From positions 1-28,286 of the IMG/VR virus record IMGVR_UViG_3300042914_001657: a stretch of DNA of 28,286 bases, one strand, 5' to 3'. This document shows positions 13,460 through 18,383 of the stretch, in pieces (the stretch's first letter is position 1; every line of letters begins with the position of its first letter). Below the pieces are notes generated by a model. The model was given only the letters and a program-made list of their open reading frames with translations, was not told the origin of the DNA and ran no database searches. This DNA comes from a virus. Position numbers and translations under genes: made by a program.

Positions 13460-13996
13460 ATGAATAACGCTCAAGCAATTACCGAGGTTCGAGCTATCTT
13501 GAATCGGCGTTATCAGAATTACAACCAACTTCCCAACCCAGAGCGGGTGCTTCTTGCCGCCGCCGTTCTCGCTGATGACATCCAAGTTAGAGAGGTGGGC
13601 GGTAACAATAAGGGAGAATGGGTTGAGGCGATATTAGAGGGGGTCAAGCTCGGAGAAGGTTATCCTTGGTGTGCAGCGTTTATTGAGTTTTGTTGCGATG
13701 TAGCGGGCTTTACTGCTGGCCCCACCGACCGAGCCTCTGCCGCCGTTGATTCATGGCTGACGTGGGCAAAGATGGAAGGGAGGGTTACCAGCAACCCGAA
13801 GCGTGGAGACTTATGCCTCTGGAAGCGGTCAACGGGTAACCATATTGGTATAGTCACCGATTTGACGATCACGAGTGTGATGAGCATTGAGGGTAACACC
13901 ACGCCGGGGGCTACGGGCAACCAGCGAGATGGTGGAGGGTGCTATCGACGTACACGCCTCAGAAACTCTTGGACGCACTTTATTTCACTAGGATAA
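13460..13996 (+). CDS. CHAP-domain endolysin
   Basis: 178 residues. After a helical N-terminus (about 1-45), REVGGNNKGEWVEAILE leads to the catalytic Cys in YPWCAAFIEFCC (Cys71). GNHIGIVTDL carries the catalytic His128, and SIEGNT holds the third polar residue (Glu144/Asn146). This Cys-His order is the CHAP amidase/endopeptidase fold, which cuts peptidoglycan cross-links at lysis. There is no signal peptide, so export should need a holin; two small membrane proteins follow. GDLCLWKR is the usual strand before the His. No separate cell-wall-binding domain is seen. Confidence 0.85.
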   Translation: MNNAQAITEVRAILNRRYQNYNQLPNPERVLLAAAVLADDIQVREVGGNNKGEWVEAILEGVKLGEGYPWCAAFIEFCCDVAGFTAGPTDRASAAVDSWLTWAKMEGRVTSNPKRGDLCLWKRSTGNHIGIVTDLTITSVMSIEGNTTPGATGNQRDGGGCYRRTRLRNSWTHFISLG

Positions 13997-14002
13997 TCAA
14001 CC

Positions 14003-14233
14003 ATGGCAACTGAACCACCAAGTAACGACTTCTTCACCGGCTTATCTGGCTTTCTCTCAAGTACCTTCGGCTGGTTATCAACCGTTATTCTTGGCATCTT
14101 CGGGGGCGGCAAATTGCACCAAAGAATAGTACAGCTTGAAAAGGACTCGGAGGGGCTTTCTGGTCTCGCCGTACAAGTGGCAAAGATAGAGGCGAAGATA
14201 GACATTCTCCTCGACGACCGTAAACGGGGGTAA
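14003..14233 (+). CDS. Candidate holin or lysis membrane protein
   Basis: 76 residues. An N-terminal hydrophobic segment (FFTGLSGFLSSTFGWLSTVI then LGIFGGG) is followed by a helical coiled-coil tail (HQRIVQLEKDSEGLSG, VAKIEAKIDILL) and a basic end (DDRKRG). One transmembrane span plus a coil directly after an endolysin suggests a holin or antiholin. The stop codon TAA at 14231 is in the same frame as the following metallophosphoesterase, with no stop or usual start in between. Confidence 0.55.
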   Translation: MATEPPSNDFFTGLSGFLSSTFGWLSTVILGIFGGGKLHQRIVQLEKDSEGLSGLAVQVAKIEAKIDILLDDRKRG

Positions 14234-14236
14234 CCC

Positions 14237-15100
14237 ATCAACAATATCAAGACAACTCTTGAGATAACAGCCAAAGAGCCAAAAGCCCGACTTGGACTAC
14301 TTTCTGACCTCCACTTCGGAGCCTCTTGTATGGTCAAGCCAGCCTTGAAGTACGACCTTGAAAGAATGGCTGCCAGCAACTGCCGAATCGGGATTAACGG
14401 CGATGTATTCGACTTTATCCTCCCTTCAGACCTTAAACGGTTCGACCTCGACGCTCTTGATCGTGAACTACTCCAAGGTGGACTCAAGCCGATTGATGCG
14501 GCGATTGAAATGGCTTACGAGTTTCTCAAGCCCTATGCCCACCTCATCGAGTTTATAGGCATCGGCAACCACGAAGCCCACGTCTCCAAGAGGCATCATA
14601 TAGACGTGATGTCTATATTGCTCTACCGTCTCAACCAACTCCCCAACGTAGAGATAAAGGCGGGCGGTTGGTGCGGGTATTGGAACGTTACTCTCAAGCG
14701 GCAAACTCGCTTAACGAACTTCTTGATGTATCGCCACCACGGAGCGGGCGGGGCGGCTCCAGTCACCAAGGGCATCATTGACTTTCAGAGAATGTTAGCG
14801 TGGCAAGGGGACGTAGACGCACTTTGGATTGGTCACAAGCACAACAAGTTTGTTGATCTCGCCACTAAGATGGAATACCGCACCAAGAGAAACGAGGCAC
14901 GAACCAAACAAGTCACTTGTATTATGACTGGAAGCTACCTCTCGACCTACGGAACCGAGGCGGGAACCAATCCGAGTTATGCTCAAGCGTGGAATCTTGC
15001 CCCTCAGCAGTTTGGCGGTGTCATACTTGAATTGTCACAGAGAGAGTTTTATGTCGGCAAAGAGCAAACAGTTACCGTACAATGTACGGCTATCTTGTAA
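14237..15100 (+). CDS. Metallophosphoesterase with non-standard start
   Basis: All calcineurin-like phosphoesterase motifs are present in order: LLSDLHFG (D-x-H), NGDVFDF (G-D-x-x-D), GIGNHEAH (G-N-H-E), YRHHG and WIGHKHNK (G-x-H). The first motif (14300-14320) lies upstream of the first ATG in this frame (14330), so a start there would remove two metal ligands. The frame is open back to the TAA at 14231 but contains no ATG, GTG or TTG. The best candidate is ATC at 14237, six bases after GGGGG, giving 287 residues; readthrough of the TAA is the alternative. It probably acts on phosphodiester bonds, perhaps DNA. The substrate is unknown. Confidence 0.75.
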   Translation: MNNIKTTLEITAKEPKARLGLLSDLHFGASCMVKPALKYDLERMAASNCRIGINGDVFDFILPSDLKRFDLDALDRELLQGGLKPIDAAIEMAYEFLKPYAHLIEFIGIGNHEAHVSKRHHIDVMSILLYRLNQLPNVEIKAGGWCGYWNVTLKRQTRLTNFLMYRHHGAGGAAPVTKGIIDFQRMLAWQGDVDALWIGHKHNKFVDLATKMEYRTKRNEARTKQVTCIMTGSYLSTYGTEAGTNPSYAQAWNLAPQQFGGVILELSQREFYVGKEQTVTVQCTAIL

Positions 15101-15112
15101 GGGAACCTAACA

Positions 15113-15301
15113 ATGAATGAACTAGTAAAGAAAATAATTGCCGGAGCATTATCCGGCTTCGTCTCGGCGTTTCTCGTTGACCTCAATGCTTGGAAGAGCA
15201 ACGAGGCAATGGAGCACTTCAACTATGCCTTAGCTATCAAAAGATGGCTAGCGGGTGCGGTGAGCGGAGCCTTGACGGGGCTTGGGTTCGGTCAGCTATG
15301 A
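15113..15301 (+). CDS. Small two-span membrane protein, holin candidate
   Basis: 62 residues with two Gly/Ala-rich hydrophobic segments, IIAGALSGFVSAFLVDLNAW near the start and RWLAGAVSGALTGLGFGQL at the end, joined by a polar loop. AAGGGA precedes the ATG. Similar small Gly-rich proteins occur in lysis regions of siphoviruses without proven function. It may be the holin or a partner of the membrane protein at 14003. Confidence 0.5.
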   Translation: MNELVKKIIAGALSGFVSAFLVDLNAWKSNEAMEHFNYALAIKRWLAGAVSGALTGLGFGQL

Positions 15302-15486
15302 ACGCCAACTTCCGCATCGGCTTTAATCTTGGCGGGTTGCTAAAGAACGTTGGGGTATTCGTGGTGAAGGTATCTCAAGAGGACGGAGAGCGGATTATCA
15401 TGGTCTGCGACCAGCTCAGAGTTGCGTTGATTCTAGCGGGGCAAGGGGTGCTTGCCGACCGCTTGATTGCTGAGTTCAGAAAATAG
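15298..15486 (+). CDS. Small unknown protein (62 aa)
   Basis: MNANFRIGFNLGGLLKNVGV then alternating hydrophobic strands (FVVKVSQEDGERIIMVC) and a helix ending LADRLIAEFRK. The ATG at 15298 overlaps the preceding stop (ATGA), which fixes the start; upstream extension runs through the previous gene. No family recognised. Confidence 0.55.
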   Translation: MNANFRIGFNLGGLLKNVGVFVVKVSQEDGERIIMVCDQLRVALILAGQGVLADRLIAEFRK

Positions 15487-15493
15487 GTATTCT

Positions 15494-16006
15494 TTGATCG
15501 TGGCAAATCTCGCATCTCAAAAGATTGAGACCGTTCCAATAGGAACACTTAAGCATCACCCGAAGAACCCAAGAAAGGGAGATGTTAAAAGCATCACCGA
15601 GAGCATTGAGCACAACGGGTTTTATGGGGTCGTGGTGGCTCAGAAGTCTACTGGCTACGTCTTAGCGGGTAACCATCGCATGATGGCGGCGAAGGCGGCT
15701 GGCTTGGATTCTCTTCCCGTGGCTTATGTTGACGTAGACGATGCAACCGCCCTTAAAATACTACTTGCCGATAACCGCACCAATGACCTCGCAACCTACG
15801 ATAACAAGGAGCTTGCGGAGTTGCTTGCAGATGTCAGCAATACAATCGGGCTGGATGGGACGGGCTTTGATGAGGCGTTTTTAGATGGTCTTATTGGTGA
15901 GATGTCGACACCTAACTTTGCTCCCGGCACAGAAGATATGCAAGGAAGACTTGACCAGAAGAAACCGTGTATTTGCCCGGAGTGTGGACATGAATTTACG
16001 ACTTGA
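15494..16006 (+). CDS. ParB-like nuclease-domain protein with zinc ribbon
   Basis: About 170 residues. HHPKNPRKGDVKSITESI, then HNGFYGVVVA, GYVLAGNHRMMAAKAAGL and ILLADNRTNDLA are the ordered blocks of ParB/Srx N-terminal domains, including the G-N-H-R turn. The C-terminus has CICPECGHEF, half of a zinc ribbon (C-x2-C plus a preceding Cys). Such proteins are frequent next to phage DNA-modification genes and terminases. It overlaps the mom gene by 17 bases. TTG at 15494 is preferred because AGG lies six bases upstream; GTG at 15500 is equally reasonable. The role in modification or packaging is inferred from context. Confidence 0.75.
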   Translation: MIVANLASQKIETVPIGTLKHHPKNPRKGDVKSITESIEHNGFYGVVVAQKSTGYVLAGNHRMMAAKAAGLDSLPVAYVDVDDATALKILLADNRTNDLATYDNKELAELLADVSNTIGLDGTGFDEAFLDGLIGEMSTPNFAPGTEDMQGRLDQKKPCICPECGHEFTT

Positions 16007-16679: not shown

Positions 16680-17122
16680 AGTACACGCCTCCAGTAGTCG
16701 AGCAGATATGCAACCTTCTCAAGGGTGGAAACACCCGCAAGACCTCAGCGATTGCGGCGGGTATCAGCGAAGAAACCTTCTATACATGGATGAGAGAGAA
16801 ACTTGAGTTTTCTGAGTCCGTTAAAAAAGCGGAGGAGATTGCGGTCGCTAGGAATGTTGCTATCATCAATAAGGCGGCGGGTGATACATGGCAAGCGGCG
16901 GCATGGTGGCTGGAGCGTAGACGCCGGGACGATTTTGGAAAGCATGACAAGGTAGATATTAACGCAACAGTCAAGGATGTAACCGCACTTAATGAACGTG
17001 AACTTAACGCCGAAATCTTTAGACTCCTTAGCATTACCGGAACGGCAACGATTGCTGGAAATGCTGAGGATGAAGCAACCGTTCTCGGACTGGTATCAGA
17101 CAACGAAGCCGAAACACTATAG
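16676..17122 (+). CDS. terS: Small terminase subunit
   Basis: 148 residues. An N-terminal helix-turn-helix (NTRKTSAIAAGISEETFYTW) for recognising the packaging site is followed by a central helical oligomerisation region (ESVKKAEEIAVARNVAIINK, then WQAAAWWLERRRRDDFGKHD) typical of small terminases. The C-terminal ~45 residues lie in the overlap with the large subunit gene and are acidic. It starts by ATGA overlap with mom. Confidence 0.8.
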   Translation: MKYTPPVVEQICNLLKGGNTRKTSAIAAGISEETFYTWMREKLEFSESVKKAEEIAVARNVAIINKAAGDTWQAAAWWLERRRRDDFGKHDKVDINATVKDVTALNERELNAEIFRLLSITGTATIAGNAEDEATVLGLVSDNEAETL

Positions 17123-18383
17123 TTACCCAAGGCACGTTGAGTACCTTTGCGAGATCGTAGACAAGACGATTAAGGGCGAGTACCAGAATGTGGCTATCTC
17201 CCTTCCTCCGGGTCACGGCAAGAGCCAGACCATTACCACGAGGCTTCCTATTTATTGGGGCATGAGGAACCCACAAGATGCGATAGTGTTTACGGGCTAC
17301 TCTCAAGACTTCGCCGACCGCAACCTCAGCAGACCCGCCAGAGAGCTTGCCAAGGAGTTAAACATTCTTGACGAGTCTTCTAATGCGATGAGTGAGTGGA
17401 GGTTGACCAACGGTGCGAGATTGGTTGCCCGTGGCGTTGGCTCAGCTCCAACGGGTATTAACCCTATATCCTTACTTGTATGCGATGACCCGATCAAGGA
17501 TAGGATGCAAGCCGAGAGCGAGACAGAGCGGAATAACATCTGGGACTGGTGGACTGGCTCGGTGGTTCAACGGTTCTTCCCTCGAACGAAAGCCTTTGTG
17601 ATTGCGACCCGCTGGCATCATGATGACTTGATTGGACGGCTGAAAGCCCAAGGCGATGATAGCTGGACGTTTATTAACCTTCCCGCCATTGCAGAAGAAG
17701 GTGACCCGCTCGGAAGGGCTGAGGGTGAAGCATTGTGGCCGGAGGTCAAGCCCCTTAACTTTCTTGAGGCCGTCAGAAGGCAGATGGGAGAGTACAACTT
17801 TCAAGCCCTCTTCCAAGGTAACCCAAGCCTTCGAGATGGTGCAATCTTCAAGGTGGACAAGGCGAGCTTTATTGATGAGCGGGAGTTGCCTCCGATGGTG
17901 GAGCGGGTGAGGAAATGGGACGTGGCAGCGAGCTCTGGAAAGGGTGACTATACAGCGGGTGTACTGGTTGGGAAGGATGCCAACGGGCGTTACTATGTCC
18001 TCGACGTTCAACGCTTCCAAGAAGGAACCGATGCGAGAAATCAACGGATGTTAGCCACCGCAAGACAAGACGGTACGGCGGTGAGGGTAGTGGTTCCCGA
18101 AGATCCCGGCTCAGCGGGTAAAGACCAAGCCCTCGCTTACCTTCGGCTCTTGAGTGGGTTTAACGCCAAGGCGGTAAGGGAGACGGGGAGTAAGGAGACC
18201 AGAGCGGACGGTATTGCATCACAATTCAACGGTGGTAACGTCTCTCTTATTAGGGCTAACTGGAACACCGCCTTTATAGAAGAGCTTAGGCAATTCCCCA
18301 CGGGCAAGCATGATGACCAAGTGGACGCTTTGGCGGGAGCCTTTAATGAATTGGTGAGTAGCAATAATGTTTGGAATTGGTAA
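16992..18383 (+). CDS. terL: Large terminase subunit
   Basis: 463 residues. Walker A is LPPGHGKS at 71-78 and Walker B is ISLLVCDDP at about 159-167, forming the ATPase motor. The nuclease half has KWDVAASSGKGDYTAG (first Asp), YYVLDVQRF and the late HDDQVDALAGAF, the RNase H-like metal site that cuts concatemers. The motor moves DNA into the prohead through the portal encoded next. The start at 16992 lies 131 bases inside the small-subunit gene, but the residues read there (FSDWYQTTKPKHYSYPRHVE) look like a true terminase N-terminus, so both frames appear coding. ATGs at codons 24 and 27 are less likely starts. Confidence 0.9.
   Translation: MNVNLTPKSLDSLALPERQRLLEMLRMKQPFSDWYQTTKPKHYSYPRHVEYLCEIVDKTIKGEYQNVAISLPPGHGKSQTITTRLPIYWGMRNPQDAIVFTGYSQDFADRNLSRPARELAKELNILDESSNAMSEWRLTNGARLVARGVGSAPTGINPISLLVCDDPIKDRMQAESETERNNIWDWWTGSVVQRFFPRTKAFVIATRWHHDDLIGRLKAQGDDSWTFINLPAIAEEGDPLGRAEGEALWPEVKPLNFLEAVRRQMGEYNFQALFQGNPSLRDGAIFKVDKASFIDERELPPMVERVRKWDVAASSGKGDYTAGVLVGKDANGRYYVLDVQRFQEGTDARNQRMLATARQDGTAVRVVVPEDPGSAGKDQALAYLRLLSGFNAKAVRETGSKETRADGIASQFNGGNVSLIRANWNTAFIEELRQFPTGKHDDQVDALAGAFNELVSSNNVWNW

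Follow-up and report, generated by a model that had tools for sequence, protein, structure and literature searches.

A phosphoesterase gene of a tailed phage that very probably starts at a conserved AUC or AUU codon

Where does translation begin in a phage gene that has no ATG, GTG or TTG codon ahead of the first metal-binding motif of its enzyme? The question is raised by a 28,286-base record of an uncultured tailed phage (IMG/VR IMGVR_UViG_3300042914_001657), here called the window, in which terminase, portal, capsid and tape measure genes are recognized using PHROGs. The metallophosphoesterase frame is open from the CCC at 14234 to the TAA at 15098–15100. Upstream it ends at the TAA (14231–14233) of the preceding gene, which is in the same frame, with only TAA and CCC between the two. 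The codons after this stop read CCC ATC AAC AAT ATC AAG, and the first in-frame ATG (14330–14332) comes only after the first metal-binding motif, SDLHFG (14303–14320), which ends 10 bases short of it. The initial annotation had pointed out these features, together with a GGGGG (14226–14230) ahead of the ATC at 14237, and direct reading of the sequence bears it out on each. It left three choices: a start at this ATC, readthrough of the upstream stop that fuses a membrane anchor to the enzyme, or a sequence error.

The local gene order is that of a lysis region: an endolysin gene with a CHAP domain (13460–13996), and then, transcribed rightwards, a small membrane-protein-like gene (14003–14233) and the phosphoesterase gene (14237–15100). 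The upstream gene, which is kept in 11 loci, codes for a 76-residue protein that has a single hydrophobic segment and a charged C-terminal region. Its earlier description as holin-like agrees with the position beside the endolysin gene, but the family searches give it no holin match: Pfam returned nothing and the PHROG matches stayed at noise level.

The product read from the ATC is 287 residues long and, judged by its metal motifs and the matches of its predicted fold, is a calcineurin-like metallophosphoesterase. It matches phrog_7339, annotated as 'DNA repair exonuclease' (PHROGs E 4.2e-17), as do 20/20 members of the enzyme family. Unlike calcineurin-like metallophosphoesterases generally, the phage enzyme matches no Pfam or NCBIfam model above noise, and sequence searches of the PDB also gave no match. 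A structure model read from the ATC (pLDDT 81.6) has fold matches in the PDB to DNA polymerase D, YfkN, Mre11 and SapH, all of them calcineurin-like phosphoesterases or subunits with that fold (probability 1.00); the model includes a predicted strand at residues 4–9 (pLDDT ~93), just after the ATC, followed by the first metal motif. The metal motifs D-x-H, GD, GNHE, HHG and GHKH are common to the phage enzyme and to the calcineurin-like enzymes, including those with the Mre11 and DNA polymerase D fold. In SDLHFG, residues S23, D24 and H26 are invariant in 20 homologues, with residues 24 and 26 being the first metal ligands, and the homologue alignment shows D56, N111, H112, H168, H200 and H202 to be invariant as well. 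Cellular genomes and annotated phages contain only distant homologues. Distant homologues in L019, L074–L077 and L079–L083, from viral contigs and from MAGs labelled Planctomycetota, proteobacterium, Bacilli, Alphaproteobacteria and Nanoarchaeia, have an ATG start near the aligned position.

Closer relatives were found by searching IMG/VR, and 14 loci from 12 metagenomes cover the start region (L001–L012, L014 and L015); together with the window these amount to 13 distinct AUC/AUU sequences. All 14 loci have a stop codon, CCC, and then ATC or ATT at the same place, with a strong Shine-Dalgarno sequence before the stop. Among the 13 distinct sequences the proposed start codon (14237–14239 in the window) is ATC in eight, ATT in five and ATG in none; it is retained down to 75% amino acid identity, and C and T interchange at its third base between near-identical proteins. 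The upstream stop is TAA in eight sequences, TAG in two and TGA in three. The relatives also differ at many synonymous sites (pS ~0.5 across the set), which, with the stop codon differences, marks them as independent sequences. The CCC (14234–14236) is invariant in 13/13, unlike the seven conserved proline codons in the body of the enzyme, none of which is invariant and all of which vary in the third base. The start column contains only ATC and ATT, whereas ATA turns up in at least one sequence at 15 of 16 conserved isoleucine columns, so that it does not behave quite like an ordinary isoleucine codon. L005 and L011 lie on one 31.5-kb contig (IMGVR_UViG_3300044613_001775, contig positions 30585–31448 and 667–1530), which carries a copy of the phosphoesterase locus at each end; the two copies differ slightly and start with ATT and ATC, and a mosaic or closed-circle assembly of two strains may be the reason. 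A pattern search of viral contigs for GGGGTRRCCCATHAANAANATH returned 17 stretches, of which L023, L032 and L034 are chance matches without the enzyme.

The search for a normal start in homologues, which had been proposed as a check, has a divided answer: the close relatives have none, but more distant homologues do have one at the ATC column, being ATG in L018, L070 and L071, and TTG in L017, L066, L067, L069 and L072. L070 is a direct counterpart of the window, with the same stop-NNN-start layout and an ATG (GGGG-TAG-TGC-ATG-AAC-AAC-ATC, against GGGGG-TAA-CCC-ATC-AAC-AAT-ATC in the window). Wherever starts can be aligned in other genes of these phages, the codon is ATG, with one GTG. In the tree a single AUC/AUU clade is not rejected (p-AU 0.16), and AUC/AUU may have arisen once or more often.

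The codons ahead of the first ATG carry the signature of a translated sequence. For codons 2–31 dN/dS is 0.057 in the close set and 0.155 across all sequences, while the rest of the gene, the body of which is intact, gives 0.039 and 0.075; substitutions upstream of 14330 number 88, 61 and 150 at codon positions 1, 2 and 3, a coding pattern. Since codons 2–31 are under purifying selection, we take them to be translated. Among the forward-strand genes of the window only the phosphoesterase gene has a coding signal well upstream of its first ATG, GTG or TTG, and no further genes with such non-NUG starts were found on that strand; several reverse-strand frames also tripped the test, and were discounted as antisense shadows of forward genes.

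A Shine-Dalgarno sequence, GGGGGU (14226–14231, rightwards), overlaps the last sense codons and the first stop base of the upstream gene, and its pairing ends 5 nt before the ATC. The predicted duplex with the 16S tail is −10.0 kcal/mol, a value that, like the others given here, assumes the common 16S 3' end; it ties for second strongest among 23 sites checked in the window. The AUC/AUU relatives tested have pairing energies of −10 to −11 kcal/mol, and the ATG and TTG homologues −2.6 to −8.3 kcal/mol. The GGG of this sequence and the CCC at 14234–14236 are predicted to form a small hairpin, but not one better than in shuffled sequence, and the CCC is a poor fit as part of an extended Shine-Dalgarno sequence, as its first C would lie opposite an A in the 16S tail. 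By its conservation the CCC behaves like fixed RNA and not like a proline codon, although as one codon it carries limited weight.

These comparisons strongly support the first of the three choices. We conclude that the phosphoesterase very probably starts at the non-canonical AUC at 14237, or AUU in some relatives, and is not fused to the upstream gene. The ATC/ATT codon is read as a real start because ATG and TTG sit at the same column in outgroups, the Shine-Dalgarno sequence is strong and well placed, and the following codons are under selection at the protein level. The comparative sequence evidence thus supports the conserved ATC/ATT as the start position, with translation including the codons right after it. 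Two points weigh the other way: the triplet also codes for isoleucine, and the column alone does not separate a start from a translated isoleucine; and all of the AUC/AUU sequences have the same-frame, 3-nt relation to the upstream stop.

The second of these points is what recommends readthrough of the holin-like gene's stop, which would yield a phosphoesterase anchored in the membrane, alone or in addition to one started at AUC. In 13/13 AUC/AUU sequences the two genes share a frame and a single codon separates them, and every upstream stop is followed by a C, which is generally thought to weaken termination. We nevertheless consider this reading improbable. The identity of the stop is not conserved, with TAA, TAG and TGA in different relatives, and a translated linker would hardly be CCC in every case when the conserved proline codons of the enzyme all vary, nor would an internal isoleucine be expected to avoid ATA; the variable stop and invariant CCC together favor an initiation site over a linker. 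The shared frame extends to L070 but is lost in several ATG/TTG homologues: in L017, L018 and L066–L072, except L070, the enzyme begins at a TTG or ATG of its own and is out of frame with the upstream stop. Readthrough would also leave no role for a Shine-Dalgarno sequence stronger than in relatives, and the window contains no tRNA gene. The membrane-anchored fusion put forward in the initial annotation is therefore not supported, though a small amount of leaky readthrough may occur beside initiation at AUC.

Initiation at the ATG at 14330, with the upstream codons untranslated or the gene decayed, has in its favor only that this is the first in-frame canonical start, and we regard it as very unlikely. 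The product would be without its first beta strands and the Asp and His of the first metal site, purifying selection acts on codons 2–31, and the family does not conserve the ATG (the methionine is leucine or glutamine in L018, L066 and L070), so that it is an internal methionine and not a plausible start; decay is at odds with an otherwise intact gene and a dN/dS of 0.04–0.08. The third choice, that a normal start was lost to a sequencing or assembly error, could apply to any single metagenomic contig, but its probability here is negligible and it is refuted by the independent relatives, whose 14 loci, from 12 metagenomes, have the same layout while differing at synonymous sites and in their stop codons. 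A reassigned stop codon is ruled out, as all three stops end genes in the window and all occur at the junction in relatives, as is a frameshift from another frame: the upstream gene already shares the frame, and other frames have no start that leads into the gene.

If translation starts at AUC 14237, the codon would be read by initiator tRNA as (formyl-)methionine, with the GGGGGU inside the end of the upstream gene positioning the ribosome there and 3 nt separating the upstream stop from the start. Initiation at the AUC would be inefficient, whether by ribosomes that have just finished the upstream gene or by ones that the Shine-Dalgarno sequence recruits; coupling to upstream translation is probable, and the product would be an intact, separate enzyme kept at a low level by its weak start codon. 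Output is probably sensitive to IF3. A more speculative component is that the invariant CCC could close the small hairpin over the Shine-Dalgarno sequence, to be opened by terminating ribosomes. Unless low expression is selected, it is hard to explain that the lineage has not returned to ATG. It is conceivable, though we hold it only tentatively and think it rather unlikely, that selection maintains AUC/AUU as a means of regulation, along with the Shine-Dalgarno sequence, the invariant CCC (and its possible hairpin) and the stop 3 nt upstream; enzyme output would then be tied to how much the upstream gene of the lysis cassette is translated and to the host IF3 level, and little enzyme would be made until late in infection.

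Conserved non-canonical starts are already known in infC, sigR, cvfC1 and ccpN, and the phage enzyme would add a case that is well supported by comparison. The infC gene, encoding IF3, starts with AUU in E. coli, AUC in Streptomyces and AUA in S. aureus, and has a good Shine-Dalgarno sequence and a start that limits initiation (PMC5472188, PMC13009471, PMC1805508). The phage gene resembles it in having a conserved start of this type in place of AUG, GUG or UUG together with good Shine-Dalgarno pairing, but infC is cellular and represses itself through its own product, whereas the phage enzyme has no known feedback and is probably coupled to the upstream gene. In S. aureus, cvfC1 (AUU), ccpN (AUA) and infC (AUA) combine conserved non-canonical starts with unusually strong Shine-Dalgarno pairing, and cvfC1 and ccpN reporters give ~10% of AUG output, with ccpN reaching as much as 30% in rich medium (PMC13009471). 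The pairing of a weak conserved start with a strong Shine-Dalgarno sequence is similar in the phage gene; cvfC1 and ccpN differ in being cellular and in having an extended Shine-Dalgarno sequence that reaches towards the start, whereas in the window the pairing is by a strong core, which is longer in the TGA relatives, and the start lies 3 nt past a stop. The Streptomyces sigR gene has a GUC start and is repressed by IF3 (PMC5472188), and is also a case of a rare start codon in an operon limiting the amount of one protein, but with GUC and a regulator, and with IF3 repression measured, where the phage gene has AUC and an enzyme, and an IF3 effect would be expected by analogy. IF3 disfavors non-canonical start codons (PMC5472188), and excess IF3 also lowers re-initiation in E. 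coli, with the clearest effect where there is no Shine-Dalgarno sequence (PMC2268962).

The open-licence part of the literature that was searched yielded no phage example of a conserved non-canonical start. Conserved non-NUG starts are rarely documented, and the one proposed here would be a known but rarely recorded way to keep a protein scarce; if it is IF3-sensitive, a phage gene would join infC and the few cellular genes that so far are the main known cases of this control. With gene callers restricted to ATG, GTG and TTG, the enzyme would be truncated and lose its first metal site. The case suggests that similar genes are hidden in phage genomes. The series of ATG, TTG, ATC and ATT at one column, with matching Shine-Dalgarno strengths, makes a trade-off between start codon and Shine-Dalgarno sequence testable.

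Elsewhere in the window, the terminase (16992–18383) is nearest, among annotated genes in the phage collection, to those of Microcystis phages (48% identity) but the capsid protein is nearest to that of a Streptomyces phage (31.5%). Directly 3' of the phosphoesterase gene is a gene for a second small hydrophobic protein (15113–15301, 62 residues), which is kept in relatives; the enzyme gene is flanked on both sides by membrane-protein-like genes. Gene content differs between the window and L016 just past the lysis region: in L016 the downstream ParB-like gene (15467–16006 in the window) is followed by a DNA methyltransferase-like stretch that is seemingly absent from the window.
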